The notes below the pieces were generated by a model. It saw only the letters and a list, made by a program, of their open reading frames with translations. It was not told the DNA's origin and ran no database searches. DNA of 64,000 nt from Phaeodactylum tricornutum CCAP 1055/1 (taxonomy: Eukaryota > Bacillariophyta > Bacillariophyceae > Surirellales > Neidiaceae), in NCBI RefSeq assembly GCF_000150955.2, contig NC_011671.1, forward strand, positions 1,054,001-1,118,000. Reading direction: 5' to 3'. The position numbers and the translations under genes were made by a program. Positions 4,201 through 37,450 of this stretch are shown one piece after another (positions within the stretch are counted from its first letter, which is position 1; each line of letters opens with the position of its first letter).

Positions 4201-5009
4201 CGCAAAGAAACGTGGAAATTGCTCCGCCGCTTCCACGATGGCGCGATAGCCTGCAATGTTGGCCTGAGAGGAAAGAATATCGTACGACTGCCCTCGACTG
4301 AGCATGCGAGGGACACAATCCAAGGCAAAGACGTTCGTCCCTTGCGCCACCAAAGCATGGTATAGATCACTGTTAATTGCGGGCTGGATTGTACTAATTA
4401 AAGTTTTCCCGGCAAATTTTGGTACATCCTCATCACTCGGCGGACGGACCTTGGTGAGAATGTCAGCATCCTGGTATATCTGGGTGGCTTTTAAGACAAT
4501 CGCGCCGGCTTCTAGGTATGCTGCATCGTTGAAAGAGGCCTTGTCGCCAGCTACAATCCAGAATATTTGTAAGATACCAGAAATGAAGCGACAAGGCAAA
4601 CTCTGGAATATTTAGATCAATACATACCTCCAGATTCGACGGCGACGGTAAATCCTTCTTTGACCAGTGTTCGGACCGAGTCAGGTGTTTGTGACACTCG
4701 ACACTCGCCTGGGAAAGATTCTTTCAGTACTCCTATAGTAAGACGCTCGTAAGGAATTCCTGCACCCGAATCGTGAGGTGATGGGGCCTCTTCATCGAAA
4801 AACGCTTGAGTCGTATCCTTTTTCGTCTTCTGTTGGATTTCCTTGTCGGGAATGATCGCAAAGCGGAAAGAAGGCGAAGGTCTACCATTGATACGGATTC
4901 GTGGAACAGACCGCAACGGAGGGGAAAAGGCCTGGCTGATACTACAAGCAGAAAGAACCAAGGCTGTCGCAGTCACGGCCCCAACGATGGAAAAGTTGGT
5001 GATTCTCAT
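1221..5009 (-). CDS. PNT: Proton-translocating NAD(P) transhydrogenase, single-chain alpha-beta form (six exons)
   Basis: Exons read on the minus strand are 5009-4628, 4550-3090, 3000-2242, 2164-2021, 1934-1915 and 1841-1221. They join in frame to about 1128 residues. The enzyme couples hydride transfer from NADH to NADP+ to proton movement across a membrane. Domain order is: signal peptide with an SQAFSP motif; NAD-binding domain I ([20 protein letters not shown] across the first junction, and [18 protein letters not shown]); membrane helices with [19 protein letters not shown]; a second membrane block ([14 protein letters not shown] across the third junction, NSYSGWA); and NADP-binding domain III ([41 protein letters not shown]). 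The usual GA-ND in domain III reads [10 protein letters not shown]. The A-F motif suggests a plastid rather than a mitochondrial membrane, which is inference. Every junction restores a family-conserved segment, so the model is well supported. Confidence 0.93.
1915..1934 (-). other. 20-nt coding microexon of the transhydrogenase gene
   Basis: On the minus strand the exon is preceded by TTGGCAG and followed by GTATGT, with flanking introns of 86 and 73 nt. It begins in phase 1. Joined to its neighbours it yields GAI-LTWIMCE-AMGRNVV, matching the bacterial beta-subunit segment that links the last membrane helix to domain III (ILSYIMCKAMNR). Skipping it would shift the frame. Confidence 0.85.
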
Positions 5010-15227: not shown

Positions 15228-18200
15228 CTACATTCCCGGAGCAAAGCGCAATTTTTTCTCTGATAGCAAAAGAGATTCTTGGACATCAAAAGACTTGCTG
15301 GCGTCGCTTTTGATAGAAGCCTCTTGGACCACCGCTGGAATGACACTGTCTGCCAACCCACAAGCTGATTCATCTATGCTGGCATTGTCATCTCCAACGG
15401 AGGCGCGTTGAGAGAAAGAGTTGTGATTGGAAACAGCTTCGACGTCAATTTCCAGGTCGTCCTTCAGAATACGGTTGTTGCAAAGAATCGCCGAAGGGCC
15501 AGGAGCTGTAACACCGGACATATTTGATGATTTGGTTTCCTGTGACGATGCCTTTTTTTCTGACAAACTGTGCGACCTGGACACCAGTGACACACCGGAT
15601 ATTCCTGCCGACATGACACCCGAAATCTGAACCGAACTTCGCCGGCGACCACCGTCGCGTTTATCACGCCAGCTTTGTAGAGTCAAGGGCACAAAAATAA
15701 ACATCAGCATGGACATGCAGGTAGCGAACAAAATGACTGCCAAAAGGAAAAAGCGTGCAACCGGGTCGTTAGAGTTGATCAAGAATAGGACGGGACAACC
15801 TACAGCGAGTAGCTGGGCCCAGCAGAAGATTGCCATGCCAAGATTCTTGCTTTCGCTGAATTCATCACTAATTTTGCGAGCTCGGTATGCTTGCCAACAA
15901 GCTAGGGAAAAAGCACCGGCGTTCACCAAGCAAATAAGAACCAAGAAAAGTGTGGTTGTCGTTTTACTCGAACCACTGCACTCGCCATGCGTGTTCCAAA
16001 ACTCTCCATTAACGGGCGCTCGGCTCCACTTTAGAGGATCAACAACGGTCCAAGATACGAGAATCGTAAGATTAAGCGTAAAAAGGACGGCGAATGGTGC
16101 AAGAACATCCTTTTCTTCGACTTTGGTGCGGCGAAAGTGTTGGCATTGAAACAGCTTGTTGATTCGCCACAGCTTCGAAAACAAAGCAGAAAACGTTACC
16201 GTGAATCCAATACTAGCGAGCCACGGCATCGAGATGCATGCAATGTCGCACCCCTGGTTTGAAACTATCTCGTCGTCAATACTGAGTGGAACGAGAACGG
16301 CTCCCAAAACAAAAACACCACAGCAAATTGTGACAAGGAACAACGGTTGCATAGTCTTGACAATACGCGTCTCGCGAGAGCGTCTAACCCAAAGCGCAAA
16401 TCCAGCTGCCGTAAACAAGATGATAGCGGACAGCCCTAATCCGATGTACCTGATATTTCCTAGCTGATTGAGCTCCAGGGGTGGTGCTACACGAATCAAA
16501 ATGTCAAAGGTCGCTTCTTGGCCGTCGCACCCGGGATAGGCACCTCCAACGTGTACTCCAAAAGACACTGTACCCAACGCCGTCCCTGACGACAACCCCC
16601 GGGATCTAACCGTAAAGTCGATTGTAAGAGACCCGCCAGACTGCAAAACTGCCCTTTTTCCATTCGACGGAGGATCAATCGGAATCGTTGAGTTCAAGTA
16701 GAACCTCGTGAAAGAAACCCACGATGGTATCGAACTTGGTCCAACAGAAACTGCAAAGGGCGCTTCATTTAGTAATAGGACTCGACTTTCCAACGGTACA
16801 TTCATGCTATGAGGAATTTGGTATTGAAATTCTTTTTCCGAAAAAGCAACACGAGTCGAGTCCGGGCAGTCAAAACATGTTTGTCTCTCAGTAATCCAAT
16901 ACGTTCCAGTGGGGCATTCCTCGGCAACTTGAACCAGATTCAAAGTCTTCAGTGAGGACACATTATTGCGCAAGCGATTAAAAAGGGACGCTTCGTATGG
17001 TAAATCGAGCTGCGCCAGGTATTGACCAACAATGTTTTGCTGCGACTCATCTCCCACTGCGCCCTGAATCTCACCTTCTACAGCAAAATTCGGACCGAGG
17101 AAATTAGGGAAAGGATTCTTTTTCTGGCAAAGGTTACTATCGGTGGCAAATCGGTACATACGCAGCCGTTCCAGTGGCTCGTATCTAGCTACATTTTGGT
17201 CCCAGACTTCGATAGCAATCAGGCGAGACCCAGACAACTGTGGATTATAAGTGACACGCATACCCGAAGTCTGAAGAAATTCACCTCCGTCGATGTTGAA
17301 CCCATTCAGTGACGCCGAACTGGTCGAATAATTTAACAATTGAAACAAGGAGATACCGCTCATCGTTCCAGTACATTCCGTGTACGGGAAACGGGAAGCC
17401 TCCCAAAGGTCGGACACCCGAACAAATCCCTCCGGCCAGCCCGATCCACGGAAACCATCACCTGCGAGAAAAGCGACATCAGCTCCTGTGTACCAGCGAA
17501 GTGCGTCTGAAAATAGATTACCTAATTCACATTCTCCAACTATACATCGATAAAAGTCTCCTTCAACTGGGGCCGGCATGGATGTACTACTTCCCAGGAT
17601 AGGATTATTCGCGATGGCTTGTGCAGCAAGGTCTTCCAAATCGGTTACATGCTTCAGGTAAATCTCGTCTCTGAAATTTTCGGGAAGATCCAAAATGTTT
17701 TCGTTCTGGGTTGTAAAATTCAATATAGTTTTCCGGTCTTCATCGAGGACGAAGCTGTGAAGCGTGAAAAGCTGGGGGTCAGCCTTATAACTTAATACCC
17801 AGGTACCTTTGCTTCCGTATTGCCGCGGAGATAAAAACCCGGCACTGTTGCTCTCAGTATCCACAATAGCAGCAGGAGCGTATTCGCTTTCCGTAACTGT
17901 TTGTAAGAAAAATTCAAAATGAGCTGGGTCTGGATCGCAATACCAGACAACCGGAATCCAACAAGACGGTGCTTCCATAGCGACATGGCTGCGGTCCAAG
18001 TACGAGTCATACAAGCTCGTGGACGGGTTGCAACCCGACTCGCGACTAAGCTTCGCAACGTAGCGGAGAATGCCCAAGACCGAAGAAATTGAATCCACAC
18101 GCGAAGAAGATTCCGCTGAGGCCGGCACAATTGACAGGACGGCAAGTTTTGTTTCCGCGTCAAGATGAACTGCCCTTGAATATTCGTGCCATGAGCTTAT

Positions 18201-18563
18201 GGGAGATACAATCGCATTTGTCAACAGCAGCGGCATGCTTCTTGATTGCAAACTTCGAATGCCACTCTGTGTAGCGTCAAGCGATAGAAGAGAAGCTTTC
18301 GATAGGAAAACGCCCCACCCCAAAAGAACGTTGAACACATGCGTATTCACACTCAATTTAAGTGGATGCATCTCTACAAACTGTGTGTACCGATCCAGGA
18401 GGGGCAGTACTATAACGGGGCTTTCGGAGACAACATTGCGAGCCCAAGCTGAGACCGCCGCAACACCGTAACAGGCTCCGCACTCCGAGTTCTCTGTATT
18501 GAGTATAGTCGCGCTAGTCCCAATCAAATGGATCGTTGTGTTGCTTGTATTATTGGATTCCAT
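15228..18563 (-). CDS. Class C (GABA-B-like) receptor with a degenerate 5'-nucleotidase-like ectodomain, copy 1
   Basis: This is a 1111-residue single exon. Residues 1-330 or so follow the layout of the 5'-nucleotidase metallophosphatase domain, but its metal-binding boxes are unrecognisable: no NDxH, and VNTHVF sits where GNHEF would. Residues about 335-490 match the 5'-nucleotidase C-terminal domain (ECELGNLFSDALRW, ADVAFLAGDGFRGSGWPEG, GTMSGISLFQLLNYS). A short Cys motif (CPTGTYWITERQTCFDCPD, about 550) and a beta-rich linker follow. Residues about 700-965 are a class C seven-helix core, with FSALFSKLWRINKLF after helix 3, VSWTVVDPLKW in helix 4, and ACWQAYRARKISDEFSESKN then LGMAIF around helix 5. 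A Ser-rich cytosolic tail of about 150 residues ends it. I infer a G-protein-coupled sensor, perhaps of a nucleotide. No signal peptide is seen at this Met. Stops lie upstream in frame, and an acceptor-like CCAG precedes it, so a leader exon may be missing. Confidence 0.85.
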   Translation of the reverse strand: MESNNTSNTTIHLIGTSATILNTENSECGACYGVAAVSAWARNVVSESPVIVLPLLDRYTQFVEMHPLKLSVNTHVFNVLLGWGVFLSKASLLSLDATQSGIRSLQSRSMPLLLTNAIVSPISSWHEYSRAVHLDAETKLAVLSIVPASAESSSRVDSISSVLGILRYVAKLSRESGCNPSTSLYDSYLDRSHVAMEAPSCWIPVVWYCDPDPAHFEFFLQTVTESEYAPAAIVDTESNSAGFLSPRQYGSKGTWVLSYKADPQLFTLHSFVLDEDRKTILNFTTQNENILDLPENFRDEIYLKHVTDLEDLAAQAIANNPILGSSTSMPAPVEGDFYRCIVGECELGNLFSDALRWYTGADVAFLAGDGFRGSGWPEGFVRVSDLWEASRFPYTECTGTMSGISLFQLLNYSTSSASLNGFNIDGGEFLQTSGMRVTYNPQLSGSRLIAIEVWDQNVARYEPLERLRMYRFATDSNLCQKKNPFPNFLGPNFAVEGEIQGAVGDESQQNIVGQYLAQLDLPYEASLFNRLRNNVSSLKTLNLVQVAEECPTGTYWITERQTCFDCPDSTRVAFSEKEFQYQIPHSMNVPLESRVLLLNEAPFAVSVGPSSIPSWVSFTRFYLNSTIPIDPPSNGKRAVLQSGGSLTIDFTVRSRGLSSGTALGTVSFGVHVGGAYPGCDGQEATFDILIRVAPPLELNQLGNIRYIGLGLSAIILFTAAGFALWVRRSRETRIVKTMQPLFLVTICCGVFVLGAVLVPLSIDDEIVSNQGCDIACISMPWLASIGFTVTFSALFSKLWRINKLFQCQHFRRTKVEEKDVLAPFAVLFTLNLTILVSWTVVDPLKWSRAPVNGEFWNTHGECSGSSKTTTTLFLVLICLVNAGAFSLACWQAYRARKISDEFSESKNLGMAIFCWAQLLAVGCPVLFLINSNDPVARFFLLAVILFATCMSMLMFIFVPLTLQSWRDKRDGGRRRSSVQISGVMSAGISGVSLVSRSHSLSEKKASSQETKSSNMSGVTAPGPSAILCNNRILKDDLEIDVEAVSNHNSFSQRASVGDDNASIDESACGLADSVIPAVVQEASIKSDASKSFDVQESLLLSEKKLRFAPGM

Positions 18564-19183
18564 GCTGGATAACTCCTATTATGGAACTAAAATGCTAGAA
18601 GCATATAATTTTTCCATTGATGAGGCACAAGAAAGATCAGCTGATGCAAGATGCTTATGTAAACTCTCTCTCTCTCTGGACCACCATGTATGACAGTATT
18701 GACAGTGAGAGAGCGCGGTTCAATGTGTCTCTCTGGCTACTTGGTATTCTGGGCCGGCGACCTCTCTTTTTCTGTGATTCACCGAGATCGAAGCAAGAAT
18801 CTGCCGTAGAAAACCCCGAAATTTCAGATAAATGTAAATTTCGTTTATTACATAATGTCTGTCTGAAGGAAAGAACAGCAAATATAATTTGCCGTGACCC
18901 TTACCAACATTTCTTATACGGGATTATAGAAAATGCGTGACAGCCAAGCGCAATTGATTCAAATAACCTAACCTGATCGATGACCTCACAATTCTTTTTC
19001 TTTTCAGGCAACGGACGAAGTTCAGGTTTCTTAAACTGCTAGGTTAACATCCAATGTGCGCAACTCTGTTAATATTGACTGTGAGGACTGTGAGTAACTT
19101 TGCAGTCGGAAATCTTTGCTGTCGCAAAGTTATAGTCTACCATGATTCAGCACCTGGGCCTTCAAGCAGGGATGCCGAGCCCA
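18564..19183. other. Intergenic upstream of receptor copy 1
   Basis: This 620-bp stretch holds a (TC)n microsatellite near 18664-18677 and TGACTGTGA at 19076-19084, followed by a second ACTGTGAG. It may carry the promoter and a missing leader exon of receptor copy 1. No other gene was seen. Confidence 0.5.
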
Positions 19184-20344
19184 CTAAAGAATCTGAGCAC
19201 CAACCTTGGCCACCCCCTCAGCTCTCATAAATTCTTCACGAAGACTATAAATGTAACGCATTACTTCAATTTCATTTGGAGTCATGGACAACGTATTGAA
19301 AAAGTCCACATGCAGAACGACTCGTTCTTGCGAGGCGTGTTCGTTCATGGTTTCGTGTTCATACGTCGTGTCGTAGAGCAAACACTCACCAGCTTGCCAA
19401 CGTCGAGTTTCGGGACCGACCCGAATGTAGGCTGCTTGATCTTCTGGAACATGAACACCCATTTGACATGTCAGCCACATATTATTCCCGTCCGTGTGCT
19501 TTGGAATGCCCGATCTTGGCTGCTGTCGATTGAAGCCAGCAATTCGCCCAGCTAATGGGACGGTTTCCAATATTCGAGTGGTGGTTGGACAAAGGTGGTA
19601 AGGAAAGTTTGGAATGCGATGACCGTTGTAGAAGAGGACGAGAGTTTTCCAGCCGCTGTCGTAGTTCATGCTGGTAACCGACTGAAAACGATCTTTGCCA
19701 CCGTTCTCAATATCCAATACCAAAGCATCATACTCATTTCGGATAGTTTCGTAGTTTTCACTCATCAAACGGCACAATTCGAGAGAGTTTGGATCATGAA
19801 ATGGTTTTGTAGCTCCGAGTCCCGGCATGTATGCGTGTATTTCGTCCTCAGGACGCCACTCGTTCTGAATAATCTCGTCTTCCAAAGGCAAGTTCTTATT
19901 CAACGTGTGTCGCACAAATCCAGCTACCCGCTCAAGATTCTCGTCCGAAATTATGGGAAATCTTGAACTGATTAACGACGGCATAAGCTCCCAAAATGGG
20001 TCGGCGTCTACTGTGCCGGTCGCAGCTGATTCCGCCACCACGCGTCCAATAGCTGTGTTCGCAGCCACGGATGCCAACGACACGATTAAATCGTCATGTT
20101 CCCTCTTGACGTACGGCTTATTTTTGGATCGTTCGCGATTTGGATCCTTATCTTGCAACGAATCAATCAAGCGCATTGACTTCTTTTCTCTTTTGTCTAC
20201 CTTCTTTGCTTTGCTGGAGTCTTTGCCACCAAACCCTTTGGCGGCAGACAACACCATGTGGTCTACCGCGATTCGAGGTTGAATAGGGTGGAATGCCGCC
20301 GATTCCTGGTATAAAAGGACTAGCACAATTAATGGAACGGCCAT
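19184..20344 (-). CDS. Aspartyl/asparaginyl beta-hydroxylase-family 2OG-Fe(II) dioxygenase
   Basis: This 386-residue single exon starts with a signal peptide (MAVPLIVLVLLYQESAAFHP). The AAF motif suggests plastid or secretory routing. After a basic linker (KKVDKREKKSMRLIDSL) the catalytic part shows the family pattern: GWKTLVLFYNGHRIPNFPYH, RTLAG-like VPLAGRIAGFNRQQPRSGIP, iron ligand HTDGNN, LTCQMGVHVPED, then WQAGECLLYDTTYEHETMNE with the second His, and RVVLHVDFF with the 2OG-binding Arg. Animal relatives hydroxylate Asp/Asn in EGF-like domains in the ER; the substrate here is unknown. It sits between the two receptor paralogues, in the same direction as copy 1. Confidence 0.88.
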   Translation of the reverse strand: MAVPLIVLVLLYQESAAFHPIQPRIAVDHMVLSAAKGFGGKDSSKAKKVDKREKKSMRLIDSLQDKDPNRERSKNKPYVKREHDDLIVSLASVAANTAIGRVVAESAATGTVDADPFWELMPSLISSRFPIISDENLERVAGFVRHTLNKNLPLEDEIIQNEWRPEDEIHAYMPGLGATKPFHDPNSLELCRLMSENYETIRNEYDALVLDIENGGKDRFQSVTSMNYDSGWKTLVLFYNGHRIPNFPYHLCPTTTRILETVPLAGRIAGFNRQQPRSGIPKHTDGNNMWLTCQMGVHVPEDQAAYIRVGPETRRWQAGECLLYDTTYEHETMNEHASQERVVLHVDFFNTLSMTPNEIEVMRYIYSLREEFMRAEGVAKVGAQIL

Positions 20345-21233
20345 TTTGGGGTGTGTCTGCTCAAGGCAAACGATTCTTTTTTGTGCTGAACTCTAATGAC
20401 GGCGATCTCCTCGGATTCGGAATGTTTCCATCAATATACCGCCTTCGGAGCGCGGACAGGCGTCTTGGCTAAGCCTCCTTCACCTGCCGAGAGCTTTTAT
20501 TTCATATATTCAAATATTTACATTTAAATATTCATTTGAAATCATATCGACTCCGACTTGTGGAACCATCGACCGGGTCATTTTCTCTCAAATATTGCGA
20601 CACTTTCCAAGTAGACTATAGACAGCAGTCACAGCTAGACTACTAATGCAATTGTTTCACGTCCATAGTTATGACGTTATGACCTCGTTCAAAAGACGGA
20701 ATCACTACGCAGCATTTTAAAAAGCTATATATGGAATGCCTTAAGTGGCTTACTTATGGTATCGCGAATATCGTTCTTCAACTCAACTAATCCAACCACG
20801 CCAGAGGATGTGTTGTAATGTATTGTTGGCCAGAGCTTTGCCACGATTCCTGTTTTCTCCCTGTCAAATCTACGTGGCATTTCGAAAATACAAGCACGTT
20901 CGTCTCGCAGAATGGCTGATTAGGTGCACTTAATTGTAACCAACATAACCAGGGGCAAAAAGGGTGGGTAAGCGCCTCATCCAGCTGCGCCCGCCAGGCG
21001 ACGACCAACCACAAACACTTCCCTTTTCGCGATGACTTCCTAGACACAGCTTGGTGAGGGCACTACAACAGTAGTACGCTGTTTGGATGCGACCTAACAC
21101 TGACTGTAAGTAGTAGCCTAGATCTTACACAAGAGTTTCGCCCGTTGTGCCAGTCCTGTCTGTTAGGCACGACGGTGGGTCCTTAAATCCTCCCGTTTCC
21201 AAAGACTTCCAAGAGAGCGTATCGGCCTTCGTC
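20345..21233. other. Divergent intergenic region, hydroxylase / receptor copy 2
   Basis: This region of about 890 bp includes an AT-rich patch (about 20500-20546, ATATTCAAATATTTACA-like), a possible promoter element, and TGACTGTAAG at 21101-21110. The stretch 21147-21233 is open in frame with receptor copy 2 but lacks an ATG. No other gene was found. Confidence 0.5.
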
Positions 21234-24200
21234 ATGACAACAATCCACATTATTGATAGCTGGGCCGATCTTCTTGGAGGAATCACGCTATCGGATTGTC
21301 GCAACGTCACTGACCCATCCTGTGTCGGCGGGGTTGCGAATGTTGCCGCCTTTGCGCGGCACTTGACCCGGAGCGGGGCGAGCGTTACCGACAGTCCGAG
21401 CGGTGGGACTGCGGAAGATATTGAGGAACCGTACATAGTGACGCCGCGGCTCGATCGGTACTCGCCATTCGTGCAAATGCATCCACTTGGATGGAGTGTG
21501 AACCGGTTGATCTTTGTTGAAGTATTGCAATGGAAATTCTTTATCTCGAGTCCCGCCTTGTTGTATTTAAGCAGCACTGCTCGTGGGAGCACTAACGGTA
21601 GCAGCACGATTTCGACGAACTCCTCGTTGATGTCGGATTTGCAAACGGACGAGTTGCCCTTCTTACTGACTAACGTGGCTGTGCCGCCAGAGAACGACTG
21701 GTACCCCTACACAAAGGCGATATACTTTGACGAAACCACGCACCTGGCTTTTTTGTCGGTCGCGGATTCTGACGAGCCCTTAAATGCGCCGCAGATAGAA
21801 TCTGCAACGGGAGCCTTGAATTATATTGCACGTTTGAACAAAGAAAGTGACTGCGATGCATTTGTTGACGATGGGGGTGGAACTGCGGTAGCCCTGGGGA
21901 GTAGCTGGGACAATCGAACCTGTTGGATTCCAGTGGTTGCCTTTGGTGATTCGGAAAATCGATGGAACAATTTCCTATTGGCGATGACTGCATTAGAAAA
22001 CCCTCCGTCTCTAATAATGGATATTGAAGGACACGATGCGCGATTTTTTACACCGCAAAAGTACAACCAAACTTGGGTTTCTAGTTACAAAATGAATTCT
22101 ACGACGTATCGTCAACAAAGCATTGTTCTAGCAGAGGACAGCCGAACAATTGTGAGCGTGACGGCGACAGCCATACCCCTAAATGAGTTGCCCGACGAGT
22201 TCAAAGACAATATCTACACATCCCACGTAACCCGCATGTACGAGTTGGGGCAGGAAGCGGCAAACAAAGACCCAATTGTGGGAACAAGTACTTTCATGCC
22301 AATTGCTAGAATTGACCAGTATAGACGGTGTATGGGTGGTGAATGCGAGATCGGAAATCTCTTTACAGATGCTCTGCGATGGTATTCTAGCGCGGATGTG
22401 GCATTTGTTTCGAGTGGAGGATTGCGAGGCCAAGGATGGCCGGAAGGAGTTGTTCAAATGTCCAATTTATGGGAATCATTGCCGTTTCCGAATACCCTAT
22501 GCTCCGGAACCATGACTGGAGTATCGTTATTCAAGCTGTTCAACTATTCTACTAGTGTTGCAAACTTTGAAGTCAAAGAAACAGTTTCGGGGGGACAGCT
22601 GCTGCAGGTGTCTGGGGCGCGACTTCGATATAATACGAAACTCCCCCAAGGAGCGTCGCGAATGGTTAGGCTGGAGATTTGGGACAAAAACGCCAATCAG
22701 TATGCACCAGTGCAACGCCTCCAATTGTACAAGTTCGCAACCGATAATTTTTTATGCGAAACCAACATACCGTATCCTGAATTGTTGGGGCAAAATTTTT
22801 ACATCGATGGGGAAGTTCCGGGTGTTGTGCGTGACGATTTACATCAAAACATTGTTGCGGACTATCTTACACAATTGAACACAACTTACCAAGCGACTAT
22901 TGAGGGACGACTCATCAATGACACTACTGTTCTGGATGCAATGAATTTGGTACAGATCGAAGGAGGCTGTGGACAAGGAACTTATTGGGTTTTTACGCAA
23001 CAGAGTTGCAAGGTTTGTCCGAATACTGATCAAGTCTATTTTGGAAAGAAAGAGCTTGAATTTGCGAGTGAAAGCGGATCGTCGAAACCTGTTGAGGGGC
23101 GTTTCGAGATACTGAATAATGCGGGTTTCCCTGTATCGGTGGGTCCCAGATCGTTTCCATTCTGGGTGACTTTGACAGTTTTCTTGTGCAATGGTACGAT
23201 CCCAATTGATCCAATTCCAGCAGGTGTAACGCGCGTGTTGCAATCCGGCGAGAAATTGACGGTAGGTTTATCTATCTCGTCTGAGCAACTCGAAGCAGGA
23301 ACAGCGGTTGCGACTGGATCTTTTTCTGTGGTGGATGGCGGGAGCTTTCCTGGATGCATTGGCAATGAAATTTCTTTTGACATTCTCGTTCGTGTGGATC
23401 CCAGTCGGGAACTCAATCAGATAGGAGGAATTCGATGGGTTGGCTGGTCGCTATTCATGGTCCTTGTTTTTTCTGCGATGTTCTTTTACACTTGGGTATG
23501 CCAGCACGAGCGAATTGCAGTTGTCCGTGCTATGCACCGCTTGTTTCTCAACACGGTTTGCCTAGGCATTGTTGTTTTGGGCTCTGTGTTGATTCCAGTG
23601 GGTTTTGACGACGGTGCATTCTCGGAAAACATATGCAACAGCGCGTGTGCTTCAATCCCATGGATCAGCGCAGCAGGGTTGAGTACAATATTTGCAGCTA
23701 TGTATCGCAAGCTGGGATCGATTGTCGGAAAAAATGAAGATGCTCGTGAATTTCGTGGTCGCCGTGTTGTTTTAACATTTGCCGTTTTCTTTGGCCTAAA
23801 TGCGTCGATTCTAGTGCCTTGGAGTATTTTAGCCCCATTGCACTGGGATCGAACGCCACTCGTTCAAGAAGAATGGAAGAGCTACGGTCGTTGTTCAACG
23901 AGCGATACGTCAAGTTTGGCTTTTGTGGTTATGGCCGGTGTTCTGAATGTGTCGGGATTTGTCTTGATATGCCGGTTGGCTTATAAAGCCCAGCAAATAC
24001 AAGATAGAAGGGACCAATTCGACCAGGCCAAAAGCATTTCATTGGCCCTGTACAGCTGGATTCAATTAGCAGTCGTGGGAATTCCTGTTCTCTCTCTGAT
24101 TAGCGCGGAAACCACTCGTGCTCGATATTTTATGATCGTTGCGCTCATCTTCGCCTTGTGTATCTCCATGCTGCTTAGCTTGTTTATTCCGATGCAAATG

Positions 24201-24272
24201 CAGAAAACGATGCAAAGCGTGCGAACATTGAGTTTAGGCAGTCGCTTCCTGAGCTCATTTCGATCTAGATAA
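21234..24272 (+). CDS. Class C (GABA-B-like) receptor with a degenerate 5'-nucleotidase-like ectodomain, copy 2
   Basis: This is a full-length paralogue of the 15.2-18.6 kb receptor on the opposite strand: 1012 residues from the first in-frame ATG, though the frame is open from 21147. Shared features include GGVANVAAFARHL near the N terminus, ECEIGNLFTDALRWYSSADV, VSSGGLRGQGWPEG, GTMTGVSLFKLFNYST, the Cys motif CGQGTYWVFTQQSCKVCPN, and a seven-helix core from about residue 726. That core has IFAAMYRKLG (the WR after helix 3 is lost), VPWSILAPLHWDRTP, and RLAYKAQQIQDRRDQFDQ before helix 6. GNHEF and NDxH are absent here too (VNRLIFVEVL and IMDIEGHD stand at comparable places). The cytosolic tail is only about 25 residues, against about 150 in copy 1. 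No signal peptide is visible, so a leader exon is suspected. Confidence 0.85.
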   Translation: MTTIHIIDSWADLLGGITLSDCRNVTDPSCVGGVANVAAFARHLTRSGASVTDSPSGGTAEDIEEPYIVTPRLDRYSPFVQMHPLGWSVNRLIFVEVLQWKFFISSPALLYLSSTARGSTNGSSTISTNSSLMSDLQTDELPFLLTNVAVPPENDWYPYTKAIYFDETTHLAFLSVADSDEPLNAPQIESATGALNYIARLNKESDCDAFVDDGGGTAVALGSSWDNRTCWIPVVAFGDSENRWNNFLLAMTALENPPSLIMDIEGHDARFFTPQKYNQTWVSSYKMNSTTYRQQSIVLAEDSRTIVSVTATAIPLNELPDEFKDNIYTSHVTRMYELGQEAANKDPIVGTSTFMPIARIDQYRRCMGGECEIGNLFTDALRWYSSADVAFVSSGGLRGQGWPEGVVQMSNLWESLPFPNTLCSGTMTGVSLFKLFNYSTSVANFEVKETVSGGQLLQVSGARLRYNTKLPQGASRMVRLEIWDKNANQYAPVQRLQLYKFATDNFLCETNIPYPELLGQNFYIDGEVPGVVRDDLHQNIVADYLTQLNTTYQATIEGRLINDTTVLDAMNLVQIEGGCGQGTYWVFTQQSCKVCPNTDQVYFGKKELEFASESGSSKPVEGRFEILNNAGFPVSVGPRSFPFWVTLTVFLCNGTIPIDPIPAGVTRVLQSGEKLTVGLSISSEQLEAGTAVATGSFSVVDGGSFPGCIGNEISFDILVRVDPSRELNQIGGIRWVGWSLFMVLVFSAMFFYTWVCQHERIAVVRAMHRLFLNTVCLGIVVLGSVLIPVGFDDGAFSENICNSACASIPWISAAGLSTIFAAMYRKLGSIVGKNEDAREFRGRRVVLTFAVFFGLNASILVPWSILAPLHWDRTPLVQEEWKSYGRCSTSDTSSLAFVVMAGVLNVSGFVLICRLAYKAQQIQDRRDQFDQAKSISLALYSWIQLAVVGIPVLSLISAETTRARYFMIVALIFALCISMLLSLFIPMQMQKTMQSVRTLSLGSRFLSSFRSR

Positions 24273-25101: not shown

Positions 25102-27798
25102 ATGGTTGTAACAGTCGTGTTCGGCATCTTTAGAGCAGCGTTCGGCTTAATACTTCGACCCTTTCGAAAGCATGATGAAAGTGACGTTGCAATTCCTGAA
25201 GAACTCCGTTTCGAAAACGCGGTAGAAGCCACACAGGAAGCAATTAATCACTCGATACCCCAGGCTTTGAATCAAGTGACATCGCAAGGGCTCAATCAGG
25301 CGCCACAGATCATTGGGAATGCGCAGTACGTCAGCAAGCACGAGTTATATTATCGAGTCGCTTGAATACCGATATGTCCTCTAACTTGTTTTGTTTGGTG
25401 CTTCAGTATCCATACAGTGGTCCAAGAAATGGCGTTACAGGCTGCTCAACACGCTGCGGTGTCGATTTCGACAGCGACGACTACAGCAGTGGGTGCGGCA
25501 GCCACATCTGCTGGTATTTTTGGCTCTGTCACTGGAGCCATCGCGGGAGCTTCAACAGGCATACAGGTGGGTGTTTTTACTGGGATTGTTGCGATGGTTG
25601 CGATATCTACTTCCACTGGTGTTGTGATATCAAACAAGAGGGCTAGCACCCCTGTCCACTCTTTTGACAATTCTTCAGCCATGAGGTTCCCCACGGCGTC
25701 TCCAAGTCAACTTATACCGAGCACCGCGACAATCGCAGTCTGTAGCAATACCTTCGAGAGAAAACGTGGTCAATTCGCAATCGATGTCCCTGGTTTACTT
25801 GTAAATTCGATTAATGCTGAGGATATCCTGTTTCTCGAGACGCGGATTGTCAATATATACAATGAAGTTTCCGGTCGTTGCCGTGAGCTTTATGAGCGAC
25901 AGCTACTTGATGCAAAACTGATATCGTGGAAAACAGAGGAAGGCGTCTTTAGAAATTTTACAATCATGTCCTGGGATGCCCGCGTGAGGTGTACGGGATG
26001 CTTCGACATTGAACCACTGTTTTTTTCATGGATAGAGAGATACGATGTCCGAAAACTTGTTGATAGAGCTACAACAGAAAAAATACCTATATCTTACGAC
26101 AAGTTTTCGCAGCGAGCGATAGCAGAAGTAAAGAGCGTGATTAATTTTGATGACACAGGCCATGCCGACGGATTATTTGACGAACCGTCTCAAATGCCTA
26201 CAACTTACCCAACTGAGGCAAGTGAGCAGGTGCTTATCGCAACAACGCCATCCTCAAATCCGTTGTCGACTACTTCCATGTTTCCGTCTACGCCTTCTAG
26301 CATTCCCACATCAGTGCCGTCGGTTCTCCCGTCCTTGAGGCCTTCAAGGGTACCGTCGACGAGCCCTTCAACAGAATCCTCGTTTGCTCCTTCTAGCATT
26401 CCCACATCAACGCCGTCGGTTCTCCTGTCCTTAGAGCCTTCAAAGGCACCGTCGACGAGCCCTTCAATAGAACCCTCCTTTGCTCCTTCAAGCATTCCCA
26501 CATCAACACCGTCGGCTCTCCCGTCCTTGGAGCCTTCGAGGGCACCGTCGACGAGCCCTTCAACAGAATCCTCTTTTGCTCCTTCAAGCATTCCCACATC
26601 AACACCGTCGGCTCTCCCGTCCTTGGAGCCTTCGAGGGCACCGTCGACGAGCCCTTCAACAGAACCCTCCTTTGCTCCTTCAAGCATTCCCACATCAACA
26701 CCGTCGGCTCTCCCGTCCTTGGAGCCTTCGAGGGCACCGTCGACGAGCCCTTCAACAGAATCCTCTTTTGCTCCTTCTAGCATTCCCACATCAACACCGT
26801 CGGCTCTCCCGTCCTTGGAGCCTTCAAAGGCACCGTCGACGAGCCCTTCAACATCGCTTTCTGCTTTGCCATCAACAGATCCATCATCAATACTGTCTTC
26901 AGTACCCTCGGGTGAACCTTCGACTGCAATCTCACTTGTGTGGACAGCCCAAGATACCACAATCGACAATGCTTGGTACGGTATCGCCTACGGCAACAAT
27001 ACCTTTGTTGCCATTTCTGATTACGGCGCCGGTAGCATGATCAAATCCAGCATGGATGGAAATGGCTGGGTAACTCAAGCAAGTACATTGCAAAATGAGT
27101 GGCTTGCTGTCACTTACGGCAATGGAATCTTTGTAGCGGTTGGAGATCAGAGTGTGGTGACCAGTCCTGACAGCCAAACGTGGACAAATCGGGTGAGTCC
27201 AGCGCCTCTTCAATGGACCTCTGTTACGTATGGTATGAACACCTTTGTTGCGGTTTCCAATTCTGGCGACGGAAACCGTGTCATGACCAGCCCCGATGGC
27301 GATATCTGGACAAGTCGCGAGAGTGCATCAAACAACTGGTGGAGTAGTGTCGCCTTTGGAATGGGGACATTTGTTGCAGTTGCTAAAACTGGGTTTGGGA
27401 ACAGAGTCATGACTAGCACTAACGGCATTGACTGGGAAAGTCAAACAAGTGTACCAAATCATGAATGGAATTGCGTCACCTATGGTGGTGACCTGTTTGT
27501 CGCAGTTGCAACAAACCGTATAATGACAAGCCCTGATAGCGTATCTTGGACACTTCGAACAAGCCCAAACTTCAAAGCCTGGTCTAGTGTCACGTACGGT
27601 GATGGAGTGTTTGTGGCTGTTGCTGAAGCCCTTGGTGACGAAGCGATGTACAGTCGTGACGGCATTAATTGGAGGACGGGATCGACAGCAAAAGGTTATG
27701 CTTGGTCTAGTGTGACATTTGGCGACGGAATGTTTGTCGCGGTTTCTTCCACCGAGGCAATGGATAACGTCATGACGGGGATGGAAAGTTCGGGTTGA
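25102..27798 (+). CDS. Membrane-anchored P/S/T-repeat protein with seven-bladed Asp-box-like propeller
   Basis: Exons 25102-25325 and 25407-27798 join in frame (donor GTACGT, acceptor CTTCAG) to 871 residues. Order: a short hydrophobic start ([17 protein letters not shown]); an amphipathic linker; a long Ala/Gly/Ser/Thr hydrophobic segment (from [20 protein letters not shown] to about VVISNK), probably a membrane anchor; a domain of about 150 residues with Cys pairs ([19 protein letters not shown]); six 32-residue P/S/T units; then seven repeats of about 45 residues with W--V-YG-G-FVAV and S-D---W. The last pattern resembles Asp-box (BNR) beta-propeller blades. I infer an extracellular adhesive or carbohydrate-binding head on a glycosylated stalk. 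No enzyme residues are evident. A decayed relative lies at about 33.2-34.5 kb. Confidence 0.8.
26292..26856 (+). repeat. 96-bp coding minisatellite, about six units
   Basis: Each unit encodes 32 residues ([20 protein letters not shown] and then [11 protein letters not shown]). Units 3 to 5 are almost identical in DNA, while the first and last have diverged, as expected from recent unequal exchange or slippage in the centre. The repeat lacks stops on the opposite strand as well, which produces a misleading antisense frame. Confidence 0.9.
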
Positions 27799-30098: not shown

Positions 30099-30460
30099 AT
30101 GGCGGATCTTGGAGCGCAACTGAACCAGCTATCGCCTGAACAGCGTCAAGCCATCATGGTGCGGGCAAAGCAGGAAGCTGATCAGCAAGTTATGCAAGAG
30201 ATGATGAAAAAGATGGTGACGGCTTGCTACGACAAGTGCGCAGGGACGTCGGTATGTAGTTACAAGGAATAAAACTCGTTTTACCGGAGATTTTCGCAAG
30301 AGACTCTCATTCCTCCACGTTTGTTGCTGGTATCGACGCTTCCCAGGGCGACAAACTCGACAACCGTGAACAGGCATGCCTCGCCATGTGTCAGGACAAG
30401 TATTTGGAGACGCGACAGCACGTACAAGAAGCTCTCTCGAAGCGTCAAAACGCCATGTAG
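30099..30460 (+). CDS. Small TIM chaperone, Tim8/Tim13 family (two exons)
   Basis: Exons 30099-30251 and 30347-30460 (GTATGT donor, CCCAG acceptor, 95-nt intron) give 88 residues. The protein shows the twin CX3C signature: CYDKC in exon 1 and CLAMC in exon 2, spaced as in small TIMs, with MMKKMVTACYDKCAGTSGDK reading through the junction and DKYLETRQHVQEAL at the C terminus. These hexameric chaperones carry hydrophobic precursors across the mitochondrial intermembrane space to the inner membrane. Its 88 residues match the family's 80-100. Assignment between Tim8 and Tim13 is uncertain. TGACTGTGA sits 219 bp upstream. Confidence 0.9.
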
Positions 30461-32456
30461 TTCGCAAATGATTGTGTTTCTGTGATTTCCCACGATTCTT
30501 GTTGACCGCTTTAAAAAATCGGCAATCACTGTACCACTGATGCAGTATTTTTTCAAAATCGAAAGCAGATGACAGAACCAATGGATATTAGTCGGTAATT
30601 AATCATAATGAGCCGGTTTGGCAATTTCCTCTTATCGAATCAGTCAAGTATTTCCATTGCGTTTCTCGCGAAGTATACTTGTATTGTCCCCAGCCGTCTA
30701 AACACTACGTCAGAGGACCGCAAACGCGGAACGGTGTTGCAGTTTTCATACGACCCAATCTCTTGGATGGAGAATTTCAAGGTGCTGTATCCCATTGATG
30801 TGTCTTCTCCTGGATTTGCATTTTTTGCTTTGAAATGATGATCATTTTCGCTCAGTAGATTAGAACTAACTGTAACCCAAAAAAGATCAGATCGGTTCCA
30901 TCAATTCACAGAAATGAGTTTGTTTCCAAAATAGCTGGAGGTGATGATTGTTTGTGCCTTGGCCAAGCAAGGCTGCAACATCATTTTAGTTGGTACTTTA
31001 CGCAGGGACGGCATAGAGAAAAGTAGCTCGGGGAAACTGAAACTGGAACCACATTTTTCGAAATGCATCATTATTTGGGTGGAATTATGAGTCATTTTCC
31101 AGCCTTCATCAATTGCGTTCACTGTTAGGCTCTACAGCATTGATAGCAGGTAAGCAACGATTTCATTTGACAAACTTCCGGATATCCCTTGCTGCTTTTC
31201 CTTTTATCAACAGAAAACTAAATTTGCCTTCTCTGCCAACATTTACATTAGCAAGATGAAAGCGTTTTTCGATTTCTCGGTGAAGCGTGTGGCGGAGCGC
31301 AAAAGGAGGCATGGTCATTGAAAAATTGTCATAGGGATCAGGAAAGCCATTTTCTGTCAATTCTCTACAGATTCGGACTGATCATGTAAACTGTGCTGAC
31401 TGCGAACTAGGAAAATCAGTCCGCTTGTCATACAACACTAGTAGCCAATTCAGTGGGATGGACAAGCTGGTGTTCCCTATAGTTGCATGCTTTGGCAGTC
31501 TTGAACTTTTTGATTTGCCTTCGAGAGACTGTTGCGAAAGCGTCCGCGCCTGCCGTAAAAGACTTAGGCGGAGCCTTGCGTTAAGGGAGGGGAAGAACTC
31601 CTCAAGGGAGTGAGTTGGTCGTGTCAAGCAATAGATTGTATCGGGACCAACTATCCTAGAGAAACAGACCTTTTGGTTTGTGTAGATCCTAAAATTATAA
31701 GGTTAGTTGATTAAGCTACTTTGAGGAATTCTAGTCATCACATAAAGTCAATGACTGCAAGGAGAGATTGGCTGTGGAACTTAACCATCGGAAGGTGGTT
31801 CCCTGGCAGAGAAAAATGCAACACCATACAAGATAGGAGGCTGTAGAAACGTGATGCATTTTAGGTCCTCTCTCACCCTCACATGGTGAGAGTGAGCCCA
31901 AATATATGGGATGATGTGTTACTTATTAACAAATTTAGGTGACAGAAGTGGAGAGACTTTTCATATGTAAACGAATTCATGTTTCGTCATACGTGGACAA
32001 CTCTTCCTTATGATCCAAGCGACGGATGAACCTAACCAAGAAACCCAAGTGTTGTAGTACATTAATGAAGGTCAATATGTGAAAGGAGCCTGAATCAAGA
32101 AGGGTTCACGAAAGCAGCATTTGCATTTCAAAAAGGGATAGAACGAATCTCTCTACACAGAATTACGTGAGATTGGCAAGAACTCCAATTCTAACATTGG
32201 ATCTCACCACATTCATTTTCATACGTCAAGTCCCACGGATTTAGTATGGTTTCCAACAAGCAGGAAACAGTATAGATTATATGCGCAATGTAAACTATAA
32301 TCTAGCGATTGAATGCACTCGAACGTTAGATTGTCGTAAACGCCCTAGTAAGTGGTGCAATACTACTGCTAAAGCAACATGGTGCAGTTTACAAAAAGGC
32401 TCTAGCATATATACTGCTAGTATACTTATTGAAAAAAATCGATAAATGGGTGATAT
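30461..32456. other. Gene-poor, CpG-poor stretch
   Basis: No supported gene lies in this 2 kb. Short frames are broken and unlike anything known. CpG is sparse on reading, especially 31600-32450. A hairpin-like CTCACCCTCACATGGTGAGA (31876-31895, arm completed by GTGAG) is the only local structure noted. It looks like old non-coding or decayed repeat DNA. Confidence 0.5.
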
Positions 32457-32691
32457 CCAGGCCTCCATAAATTCGGCCCTTGCCATAAATACCTGGAATA
32501 AGCCTATTTATGGCCAATTTCATCTTTTATTTATGGTGTGCAGAGTTTAACGACTGTTTGGGTGCAAAGCTTTGTATTGCTCAGCATGCAGGATGCCTTC
32601 AAGAGAGAAATCAGTACTGCTTGAGGAGAACTCATCCTTAGATCATTTCAGGACAGAGAAATTTGATTCAACACCTTATTTATAGGCCTGG
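32457..32691. repeat. Possible small MITE bounded by CCAGGCCT / AGGCCTGG
   Basis: The two ends are inverted (CCAGGCCTCCATAAA at 32457-32471 and TTTATAGGCCTGG at 32679-32691). Inside is a second palindrome, GCCATAAATA...TATTTATGGC, around 32482-32514. No clear target duplication is seen. It may be chance. Confidence 0.25.
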
Positions 32692-33174
32692 TGATTGGAC
32701 TCTGCCAAATCCACTAAATGGGTGCTTAACAGCTGCATGTGTCATTTTTGCTAAATAGATCTTATTTCTTAAAGCAAAAGTTGTATGGAAAATTAGATTG
32801 TGTATAAAATCATGTAGCTGAGTAATTGAGATGACAACTCACGGCAAAAGCTTGGGGAAAAATCGGAGGCTTTTGGTAAGTTCTCCATGTCCATTGGTTT
32901 TGTTCACTGTAGTTTCTGCTTCGGATGCTTTGAACAAAGCCAAAATAATTTGATCAGCATTTGCTGCCGGCCGGCTCATTAAAAAGCACCATATTTGACA
33001 ACTTGATTGCTTCTTTGAATTGGACCGCTTTGTCTCCCCGAGAAGATACAGGGAGCAAAAGCAACTTGACAACCAGTTGGAATATGAAAAGGTCACATTG
33101 CATGACAAGTATTTTTCAAGTTGACGGCAAACAATTAAAAGATACAGTACCTTATCAGGAATTTGACAAGGAGG

Positions 33175-34460
33175 CTACAGGAAACAAGAAATGGATGGGC
33201 ATGGGAGTTGTTGTTGGCATTGTTGCAGCAGCCTTTGGCTTAATACTACACCCTTTTGAAAGCACAATGACAGAGTCATTTTTGAAAACAAACACCCCTT
33301 GGTCGGAAAACTTTGCCAGCCGCTTAGAGAACCCCTCCGTAGAATCCATGCAAGAAACTGTAAATCATTCAATGTGTGATGTGTTTCATTAATCAGCATT
33401 GCAAGGGCTCAATCAGTCTTTGCAGAGCCTTGCAGGAGCGGGAGGAAACTTAATGTCAAGCGTCAATGTGCGGTACATAGGCAAGCATGTTCTATGTTGT
33501 TGAGTTTCTTGAACACCAATATGTTCTCTACTTTTTTCTATTTGGTGTTTTGATATCCACAGAGTGGTTCAAGAAATGGCGTTACAGGCTGCTCAACATG
33601 CTGTGGTGTCAGTTTTGACAGCAATGGCTACATCAGTGGGTGCGGGTATAGTTGGACCTGTCACTGAAGCCATTGCTAGGGATTTGACAGGGATGCAGAC
33701 GGGAATTGTTGTGGAAATTGTTGCCATGGCTAAGGTAATGGTTTCCATGGGTGTTGTGATTTCAAACAAGGCCACTCTTTTGACAATTTTTCAGCCGCAA
33801 CATTCCTAACGGCGTCACCAAGTGATATTGTTCCAAACTTTGAGCTGATAGAAACTTACAGCAACACTTTTGAGACAAAACATGATCGCTTGGCAATAGA
33901 TTTTGCTGGTGCACTTCAAAATTTGATTGTTGCTGGGAAATCCTATATACAATGGGTTATCCTCTTTCTCAGGAGGTAGTTTGTGGAGATATATAATCAG
34001 GATTCTGGTCTTTGCAATGACCTTTATGAGCAGCAGCTGCTTGATGCAATTGGTATTGTGGAAAACAGATGAACAAATGAAGTCATGGTTCCAAGTGAAA
34101 GTTTACCAGAAAGCTCAACAGAGACTCCAGTAGACAGCCCAATAAAAATGGAATACTTGAACCATTTTCAAACACAACATCACCACCGACTACTAGCTTT
34201 CCCCCAGAAGTTCCATTGCAAAATCCAAGTACTACCACACCAGCTCCAAACCGCTTACCAATGGAAGGCCTCCCATCTGAAGGAAACGCTACTCTGTTGG
34301 CATATCCTACACATAATTTGGTAGAAGCTAGTTTGACTCCGGCAAGTGTGGCACCACCATCTTCTGGGTTGGAATATCTTGGAAGACAAACTGCAGAAGT
34401 AACAAAACAGTATCTTTATTTGCTACAAGAAAACTCGCAGCGGAACCGACAAGTAGTTTG
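33175..34460 (+). pseudogene. Decayed partial copy of the 25.1-27.8 kb propeller gene
   Basis: Equivalent parts occur in the same order. GVVVGIVAAAFGLILHPFES matches exon 1 of the intact gene. The segment [16 protein letters not shown] and the Ala/Gly hydrophobic region match the start of exon 2, where about 40 bases are nearly identical (33563-33603). Then come NTFETKHDRLAIDFAGAL and, in other frames, DLYEQQLLDAIGIVENR. A Pro/Thr-rich stretch follows, but the 96-bp units and the propeller are absent. Frames shift and stop repeatedly, so it is non-functional. In a 60-base stretch shared with the intact gene (25441-25500), six of seven CpG sites have become TG or CA. It abuts the degenerate repeats downstream. 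Confidence 0.75.
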
Positions 34461-35069
34461 ACAAGGATTGTCATGGTATATACCAAGACAACATGTCTTT
34501 ACGACAAGTGACACCTAACATGGACAACGGAAGTGTGAATCAGGGTGGAGAGCATGGTGGAACCGTGGCATTTATGTCGGCCTTATTGCACAACACAATG
34601 TATTTGTGCCGTGATCAGAGACATCCTTTAATAATGATGTGGGAGCAAGATACAAGAATGAGGGTTAGGATACAGTCCCACAAATTGCAAGGCAAGTTGC
34701 AGGCAGGGTTGGATACTTGCTGAGTGATAGGGATTTATATTTAGAAGATATATACTCTATGTGGGAGTAAGATTATCTGGCACATGGTAAGAGGTCTTCT
34801 ATCTGAATAGAAGGACCGATTCTCATGGACTAGTGGTAGAACAATCTTCCTCTCATTGTTTAAGAAAGTCATTGATCCAAATATTGCATTAGCATAGGTC
34901 CTTGTATCCGCTGTCTAACCCGTGGGGAGCGTCGTAAGCAAGTTGAGTTTTACAGTCCCTAAGTCCGCTTACGTGTATTGCAGGTCGTTTGTAATAACGC
35001 CCACTTGCGTTTACCAGGTATTGTCAACACCGCGTTTTCCTGTCTTTTGTACGTACATTGGTTGTACTA

Positions 35070-35577
35070 TGTAACAAGGATCCTGGTAAAAAGTTCCATA
35101 TTGGATTTGGCCGGTAGCCGTCAACTGGAAAACCGCCTCGCGCGATTGCGCGCATGCCTTGAGTCATGACAACCAAGGCAAGCTGGCCAACACTAATTGT
35201 GTGTGTTTGGTCACAGATTGCAACACTGATTGTTTTTGATTGGTGACTAGACAGTTGAATGTCCAAATATATAATGTGACTGTTTTGGGTCTTGACATTT
35301 ACCACTTTCAGAAGCATGGTTACTATGACAAACTTGCCCATGGTAGCGTGTACAATACCATAGGATTGATGAAAATAGTCCACGGTGGTTTTGTCACCGT
35401 GGAACTTTATGAAACTGAATAGAGTTGGTTTTAGTTTAGAGCTTATAAATAAATCTTAACAGTGACTGTTTGAAAACCATATTAGTTAGTTTGCATCTCT
35501 TTGTTATGAGCGAGACAAGTCTTGATCAACTTGTGTTGTCTTCAGAAGCCGGGAGATGCTTGACCGTTGACATCACA
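35070..35577 (+). repeat. Module B, forward copy
   Basis: It shares GACAAGTCTTGATCA and GTCTTCAGAAGCC with the reverse complement of 36975-37450. Translated pieces such as YNVTVLGLDIYHFQKHGYYD correspond to HDVTVSGLDCCHAKEHGNYN of the inverted copy, so the module derives from coding sequence. The family is not recognised. Confidence 0.6.
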
Positions 35578-36974
35578 CCTGGATCTTTATTACAGACCGG
35601 TGACCTTCATCAGAGAGTTCTCAAAGCCAAACAATGCCATGCAACTTGGCAAGCCACATTACCAGTCTCAACCAATGCGCAAAAAACCTCAAGATTCATA
35701 GCCCACATTTGCAACTGAAAATTTAACGGAGGGCAAATTAGGCTCCCAAGGTTCTATTACAAGAAATCCCGGTTGGAAGCAACCCATTGAGATTTTTGAG
35801 AAAACTGAAAAGAACGTCACCAACCGTGTCACGGTACACTACCTTGCGACGTGTCCCTCGAATGTATGCCACTTAGTATGGAAAACGCAAGTGTGAGCCA
35901 ATCCGATGGGCGCGGCGTTTACGTGTCACGTGTGGAGTTTGTGTCGGCCTTATTGCGCAAATTCACCGTATTCGCGTTACATACGGAAGTCATTCGTATC
36001 CTGGAGTCATGAATACAGGATACATACAAATGGCAGTTAGGAAAAGACACAAAACCAGTCTCATGAATCACATGACAAGTAAGGAGCAAGATTCATTACT
36101 CACCATGGGATTCTGTATGGAATTTATATTTACAGGTTTTATGCACATGTGAGAAGATTCAAGATTAGCTATGTTTTTGGTAAGACTGTTCACTGGATTG
36201 AACAGACTTTGCAAGATTGACTAGTTTATAGAATGTAATCTTCTTCTCATTGTTTTAGAAATTCTTTGATCCAAATATTGCGTAATAGCATAGGTCCTCG
36301 TATCCGCTGTCTAACCCGCGGGGAGCGTCGTCAGCAAGGGAGTCCCTAGGTTCGCTTAGGTGTATTGCAGGTTGTTTGTCATAATGCCCAACCTGTGTTT
36401 ACCACGCACTGTCAAACAGCATTACTGTCCTACATACATACATTGAGTGTACTACGTGAGAAATCGTCCAAAGAAGCGTATCCAACCAACTAAGAGAATT
36501 GAGGATAGAGACAAAGTCTTCTCCCAAACAGTCATTTGGTCATACACATGTGGGTACCAAACAATTAACACATGCACAAATTCAAAGGAGTGTATGACAA
36601 TGAGACTATCCTTACAAAATTATTGGGCTAGAGTTTTGGAGGAAAACATTTAATTGCTAACAAGGTCCAAGGAAAAAGTAGAAGACTCATCTTTCTGTAA
36701 CTCAGGTACCAGATCAGAGGGTGGTTGTAAAAGTACAATTTCCAGCAAACAATGTGTTAGGGAAGAAGAACAATTCAATGAAGCTAGAGTGGTAGTTACA
36801 GGCTTCAAATGTGACCTAACAGACAAACAAATGAGAGTACATGCATTTTTTTTACTGCTGGCATGGATTGTGTCTCACACTATCCTTTTTTATCATAGAA
36901 ACTCAAGCTGGTAGGTGATACACAAATTGATGACCTGAGCATTGTGTTGTTGGCAATGCATGTTGTTGCTGGCA

Positions 36975-37450
36975 ATTGTCAATGTCAAGTATCTCCTGGC
37001 TTCTGAAGACAGCACAAGGTGATCAAGACTTGTCTGGCTTCTAACAAAGAGATACAAACAAACAAATATGGTTTTCACACAATTGTTGTTACAATTTATA
37101 AGCTCTAAACTAAGGCTAATCTGTTCACTTTCCATTTGGTCCCACAATTTGCCAAGCGCCATTGTGGTCCATTTCATTAGTCTCCATGGTGTTATACAAG
37201 GGACCGCAGGCACATTCATTATAGTTACCATGCTCCTTAGCATGGCAACAATCGAGTCCCGAAACAGTCACATCATGTTTCTGAATACTCAACTGGGACT
37301 GCACCTGTCCAAAACCATCCGTGTCAAGATTTGTGGGCAAACACTCAAGATTAGTTTTGATAGGCTTGCCTTGGGTGTCACAACCCAAGTAATGCATGCC
37401 ATTGTGTGAACCGGTACTCAAAACTGTCATTCCAGTTGACAGCAATGGTA
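36975..37450 (-). repeat. Module B, inverted copy
   Basis: This is the opposite-strand partner of 35070-35577. Its minus-strand frame is the better preserved, with a Cys/His-rich stretch (GLDCCHAKEHGNYNECACGP, then LYNTMETNEMDHNGAW). It could be the relic of a small Cys-rich secreted domain; that is inference. Confidence 0.6.

Follow-up and report, generated by a model that had tools for sequence, protein, structure and literature searches.

Within the class C receptors the Venus-flytrap ectodomain is known to vary (PMC3727952; PMC12716839), and residues typical of the class are a Lys/Arg in TM3, an acidic residue in TM6 and a Pro-Lys in TM7 (PMC3727952). In Phaeodactylum tricornutum, two of the described receptors are GPCR3 and GPCR4, with lengths of 1111 and 1012 aa, respectively (Table 2 of PMC3727952), and with the gene numbers J44131 and J44133 (PMC7452957). 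EST coverage has been reported for residues 1-228 and 378-1111 of GPCR3 and for residues 1-125 and 366-986 of GPCR4 (PMC3727952). In a figure legend of the same paper, 5-nucleotide-C is one of the domains given for diatom receptors, and the text of that paper assigns PBP-like domains to three P. tricornutum receptor sequences. Growth on solid medium raises the expression of both GPCR3 and GPCR4, and GPCR4 transformants are oval, attach more strongly and form clumps, a shift that is also displayed by GPCR1A transformants (PMC7452957).

The pairing of 5_nucleotid_C with a class C receptor has also been described in choanoflagellates and other close relatives of the animals, where Ephrin-receptor-like domains occur as well (PMC12716839), and 5_nucleotid_C is present in a glutamate-family receptor of Capsaspora (PMC3251606). 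In CD73, a two-lobed 5'-nucleotidase, the lobes rotate by about 100 degrees between the open and closed forms, and a linker helix sits just ahead of the C-terminal domain. AMP is contacted by Phe417 and Phe500 (stacking on the base), Asn390 and Asp506 (ribose), and Arg354 and Arg395 (phosphate) (PMC8677862).

Two fused receptor genes and their published counterparts

The window, i.e., the whole stretch of 64,000 nt analysed here, contains two divergently oriented ORFs, A and B (Table 1), with an ORF for an aspartyl/asparaginyl beta-hydroxylase between them (19184-20344, minus strand; PF05118, E value 3.4e-39). In A and B alike, PF02872 is followed by PF00003 within one uninterrupted frame. Based on the Pfam search, PF02872 covers residues 335-485 of A (71.3 bits) and 378-538 of B (85.3 bits; cut-off 23.6), and PF00003 (7tm_3) covers residues 705-959 of A (107 bits) and 764-1015 of B (60.9 bits; curated cut-off 33.5). 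The earlier note had read from the letters alone a 5'-nucleotidase C-terminal domain joined to class C helices in both proteins, and these matches bear it out; the motifs that it cited and the Cys linker are likewise present in the sequences. The two proteins are identical in 417 of 1029 aligned columns (41%), ectodomain included, and so both parts have been retained together since the duplication. Three scans of viral contigs returned no relatives of A or B.

Table 1. Positions of the two receptor ORFs and their parts in the window.
Feature	Position	Strand	Length or basis
ORF A (GPCR3, Phatr3_J44131)	15228..18563	minus	1111 aa; length and place match
A, N-terminal half, probably diverged metallophosphatase-type without catalytic motifs	17562..18563	minus	z 4.02; motif scan
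A, 5'-nucleotidase C-terminal domain, PF02872	17109..17561	minus	E value 1.3e-19; model
A, short Cys-rich linker, CPTGTYW..CFDCP	16863..16916	minus	kept between A and B
A, unnamed conserved stretch, about 130 residues, ahead of the helices	16464..16862	minus	kept between A and B
A, seven-helix class C domain, PF00003	15687..16451	minus	E value 1.7e-30; GABA-B2 match; seven hydrophobic peaks
ORF B (GPCR4, Phatr3_J44133)	21147..24272	plus	1041 aa from GTG; 1012 aa from the first ATG (21234, codon 30)
B, N-terminal half, probably diverged metallophosphatase-type without catalytic motifs	21234..22277	plus	z 3.33; C.GGVA box
B, 5'-nucleotidase C-terminal domain, PF02872	22278..22760	plus	E value 6.3e-24; T. 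thermophilus 5'-nucleotidase, E value 9.2e-11
B, short Cys-rich linker	22968..23021	plus	kept between A and B
B, unnamed conserved stretch before the helices	23022..23432	plus	kept between A and B; model of very low confidence shows strands
B, seven-helix class C domain, PF00003	23436..24191	plus	E value 1.9e-16; GABA-B1 match; seven hydrophobic peaks

From their lengths, gene order and gene content, A and B are taken to be the published GPCR3 and GPCR4, with which they share the class C helices, the 5-nucleotide-C domain and adjacent gene numbers (PMC3727952; PMC7452957). The numbering J44131/J44133 is consistent with one gene in between, since the beta-hydroxylase ORF separates A and B. As PBP-like domains were assigned to three other receptor sequences, that assignment and the present Pfam result leave GPCR3 and GPCR4, by elimination, for the nucleotidase domain. 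In both genes the second EST stretch, which is summed over several ESTs, begins inside the nucleotidase C-terminal domain and reaches the helices. The receptor pair is real, is transcribed according to PMC3727952, and is already in print; an artefact of the gene models is ruled out by the single open frame of each gene together with the published ESTs.

The seven-helix part was proposed to be GABA-B-like, and among solved structures the helices are indeed closest to GABA-B receptors, to GABA-B2 for A (E value 3.9e-21) and to GABA-B1 for B (E value 6.8e-8). Towards the C-terminus of both proteins, hydropathy analysis gives seven strong peaks, and each N-terminal half has a single weak one (1.45 and 1.46). 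Like GABA-B2, A has a Lys and an Arg where TM3 ends, as well as an acidic residue in TM6, by alignment, and its TM7, by reading, has Pro-Leu. B has the TM3 Lys without the Arg, no acidic residue at the aligned TM6 place (an Asp lies one residue earlier), and Pro-Met in TM7. Both proteins differ from the GABA-B receptors in the replacement, by this reading, of the TM7 Pro-Lys and in that no Venus flytrap was detected: no ANF_receptor or PBP family matched A or B in Pfam at E values up to 1. In both proteins the nucleotidase domain is separated from the helices by the Cys linker and by some 130 more conserved residues, a stretch that the earlier note did not mention. Pfam returned no match over the linker and the stretch of A, and for the linker of B only a sub-threshold match to Opy2 (E value 0.05).

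Other features of the window are recorded here as observations. A large ORF at 25417-27798 (plus strand) includes 5.8 copies of a 96-base tandem unit (26293-26853) encoding Pro-Ser-rich repeats, which are followed by repeats of the W.SVTYG.G.FVAVA kind and by an EPTP match (E value 6e-9); it looks like a repeat-rich surface protein. A small intron-split gene at 30100-30460 (plus strand) resembles, by eye, a small mitochondrial TIM chaperone with CX3C pairs, and a proton-translocating transhydrogenase at 1221-4599 (minus strand) has its alpha and beta parts in adjacent exon-like ORFs, perhaps of one fused gene. The GC content drops to 0.41-0.44 between 30001 and 40000; no listed ORF of at least 150 aa lies within 30581-39522, and a 78-base tandem repeat occupies 38909-39161. 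A coiled-coil-like ORF of 790 aa with many Glu, Lys and Gln residues and no Pfam match reaches the end of the window (61626-63998, minus strand) and may account for the strong AT skew in that part. The window also encodes a Tic22-like protein, a threonyl-tRNA synthetase and the ribosomal protein L37e; with the transhydrogenase, this gene content is consistent with an algal origin.

The nucleotidase C-terminal domain and its pocket

The nearest solved relatives of the B ectodomain in the PDB search are 5'-nucleotidases, among them the T. thermophilus enzyme (E value 9.2e-11). When A was searched alone, the nucleotidase rows (E values 0.14-0.37) were not significant and stood below unrelated enteropeptidase rows (E value 0.05); its C-terminal domain is nonetheless significant in Pfam. 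At the places of CD73 residues Arg354, Asn390, Arg395, Phe417, Phe500 and Asp506, the alignment gives I, A, R, F, N and N in A and M, S, R, F, F and I in B. Two of the six AMP contacts are kept in A and three in B, with both nucleobase-stacking aromatics retained in B and one in A, and the ribose contacts and one of the two phosphate contacts are lost in both copies. Neither protein has the intact six-residue pocket of the 5'-nucleotidases, in which, among 36 bacterial rows, five of the positions are invariant (36 of 36) and the Phe500 position is Tyr in 31 and Phe in 5. Because the loop near Phe500 and Asp506 is altered in both copies, these two assignments are the most alignment-dependent; they agree with the alignment from the PDB profile search. 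The loss of four of the six contacts in A and three in B weakens the case for nucleotide sensing. Judged from these residues, B could have a nucleotide as its ligand, and A less probably so.

A structure predicted with AlphaFold2 from A and B alone had a mean pLDDT of 30.6. A second model, built from the A ectodomain with B and 36 bacterial nucleotidases (picked for spread from 80 fetched loci), reached a mean of 58.4 and is good only in the C-terminal domain, with block values of 63-96 over residues 321-530 and of 24-57 over residues 1-290. With this model as the query, Foldseek placed CD73, UshA and NadN structures on top. Among the best 50 of 514 matches, 48 are titled nucleotidases, 6vc9 is CD73, and the remaining row, 9a7h, is YunD, which we take to be a nucleotidase relative; in 49 of these 50 the alignment runs over 528-606 columns including gaps, approximately the whole length. 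The corresponding TM-scores by query length are 0.34-0.56 and the rmsd values 8-14 Å. Since the 36 bacterial nucleotidases were part of the alignment, the Foldseek result is not independent and is stronger support for the C-terminal domain than for the N-terminal half.

Probable catalytic loss and the origin of the N-terminal half

The absence of NDxH and GNHEF boxes from both copies had been noticed before, and it stood up to a motif scan, which found no DxH, GNH[ED] or GHx[HN] in the N-terminal half of A or B. His residues number 9 in that half of A and 6 in that of B, with 3 in shared columns of the A/B alignment. In the bacterial comparison set, 79 of the 80 fetched loci gave an ORF of more than 400 residues with GNHEF; as this was the selection rule, GNHEF is found in all 79 by construction. 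NDxH and GH[ST][HN] were found in 79 of 79. The nucleotidase profile also took in four of five plasmid proteins, the one left out (L005) being 100% identical to that of L006. Might the ectodomain be an active ectonucleotidase tethered to the helices? Its C-terminal domain is clearly homologous to that of the enzymes, and the motifs do vary in the wider family, where, as far as bacterial sequences go, L001 has NDVY, and L004 has GQHEF and no GHxH box. Against this stand the scarcity of His and the joint loss of all motifs, which makes a two-metal active site very unlikely despite the family variation. Of the metallophosphatase N-terminal domain with two-metal motifs that is a trait of the 5'-nucleotidases, neither protein shows the motifs or a Metallophos match in Pfam. 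Assignment of single metal ligands was dropped, as strand 1 and the region following it shift between alignments, and the argument for catalytic loss rests for that reason on the absence of the motifs. An active enzyme, which would be most improbable, was rejected on account of these missing motifs, and the reading that the ectodomains of A and B are catalytically dead is well supported by their sequences.

A further alternative is that nucleotidase ancestry is confined to the C-terminal domain and that the N-terminal half is unrelated or newly evolved, in which case there would be no two-lobed dead nucleotidase. Pfam finds no metallophosphatase match in the N-terminal half of either protein, which favours this alternative, as does a local search with an HMM of the nucleotidase N-terminal domain, where neither A nor B is significant and both have scores resembling those of shuffles (B ranks 26 and A 473 among 1002 sequences listed of 2098 searched, mostly shuffles). 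With hhalign, the N-terminal halves match bacterial nucleotidases with an E value of 0.14 across 11 columns, as opposed to 7e-13 for the C-terminal domain in the same comparison, and the C-terminal domain is the best stretch in 26 of the 26 rows of the PDB profile search. The global profile alignment points the other way, with z values of 3.8-4.4 for A and 3.1-3.4 for B at three gap settings. At the setting used for decoys, A (4.02) lies, narrowly, above all 79 decoys and B (3.33) is exceeded by two of them (mean of the 79, 0.48; highest values, 3.88 and 3.63); the decoys are, for each bacterial locus, the longest remaining ORF with 300 residues or more, of unchecked gene status and partly neighbours of the same kind. 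Column shuffles reached the joint score of A and B in 1, 1 and 2 of 500 cases at the three gap settings. The box SCVGGVANVA of B pairs with the bacterial ECFGGVARLA (C.GGVA), and less exactly so in A; the N-terminal halves, 364 and 331 residues, are similar in length to the 324 of the nucleotidase comparison; and both models, of which the one from A and B alone has very low confidence, predict a long helix immediately ahead of the C-terminal domain, at the place of the CD73 linker helix (PMC8677862). The balance of these results makes an unrelated N-terminal half unlikely, and a diverged metallophosphatase-type lobe is suggested by the sequence comparisons, at the level of the suggestive only. 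The earlier statement that this half keeps its layout has in its favour the global z values of about 3 to 4, with A above all decoys, and against it the failure of Pfam, the shuffle-like HMM scores and the two decoys above B. As a whole, catalytic loss has good support and the two-lobed fold moderate support.

It might also be argued that, without sensing a ligand, the ectodomain has a structural or adhesive function in surface attachment. The stronger attachment and clumping of GPCR4 transformants (PMC7452957) would fit such a role, as would the loss of most pocket residues in A; the three pocket residues retained in B and the two in A speak against it. GPCR1A, to which a PBP-like ectodomain falls by elimination (PMC3727952), brings about the same shift when transformed (PMC7452957), and so the phenotype does not point to the nucleotidase-like ectodomain. 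We regard an adhesive module as distinctly unlikely.

A possible hinge-type ectodomain

The reading that we consider probable is that the outer part of A and B, i.e., of GPCR3 and GPCR4, has a two-lobed 5'-nucleotidase resembling CD73 and UshA as its ancestor, no longer hydrolyses nucleotides, and serves as a hinge sensor for the helices. In this proposal the C-terminal lobe would have kept its fold well and the N-terminal lobe would have lost the metal site, and with it the hydrolysis of nucleotides. A ligand that occupies the cleft or binds to the C-terminal lobe would change the angle between the lobes, and the movement would be passed through the Cys linker and the stretch following it to the seven helices, in the manner of Venus flytrap closure in other class C receptors. 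By analogy with the lobe rotation of CD73 (PMC8677862), an inactive enzyme built in this way could supply the hinge that the flytrap provides in other receptors of the class. A and B resemble CD73, UshA and NadN in the C-terminal domain, by sequence and by model, and in the equivalents of Arg395 and Phe417, with that of Phe500 in B; they differ in lacking the catalytic N-terminal motifs, in the replacement of the equivalents of Arg354, Asn390 and Asp506, and in their fusion to seven helices.

That the N-terminus lies outside the cell is an assumption based on the class of receptor, since the search for a signal peptide exon was not convincing for either gene. For A, no exon with a hydrophobic start was found with GT-AG borders, nor again under relaxed rules with GC donors. 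For B there was one weak GT-AG candidate, and 22 under relaxed rules, the most hydrophobic of the seven listed having a GC donor and lying antisense within the hydroxylase ORF. None of the candidates upstream of B was taken as real.

The fusion is already known, as are the genes and the domain pair, and cannot count as a new type of sensor. In the receptors of Capsaspora (PMC3251606) and of choanoflagellates (PMC12716839), the outer part of a class C receptor likewise contains 5_nucleotid_C; those organisms are opisthokonts, whereas A and B belong to a stramenopile, and the likeness noted here is one of domain description. Of the different sensor design put forward in the earlier note, the dead nucleotidase is supported, with the motifs and part of the CD73 contacts gone, and the newness is not, GPCR3 and GPCR4 being published and the pair known in holozoans. 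The accessible parts of PMC3727952 and PMC7452957 hold no discussion of a dead catalytic half or of a two-lobed sensor. In the open-licence literature searched we found no account of a dead nucleotidase ectodomain on such receptors, which does not prove its absence.

The contrast between the GABA-B2-like residues of A and the Lys-only pattern of B, together with the joint up-regulation of the two genes, allows, and does not show, that A and B form a receptor pair. More broadly, we speculate that a dead two-lobed nucleotidase replaced the Venus flytrap, with the hinge kept and the chemistry lost, that the diatom senses nucleotides or other phosphorylated or aromatic cues which trigger settling on surfaces, and that GPCR3, the more GABA-B2-like, and GPCR4, the more GABA-B1-like, might pair; taken in full, this scenario is rather doubtful. 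Given the clear phenotype of the transformants (oval form, adhesion), the ligand of GPCR4 could be sought directly. To the published record the present analysis adds the reading of the enzyme half as dead, by which an odd domain label becomes a testable idea, that of a second hinge-type ectodomain for the class C receptors.
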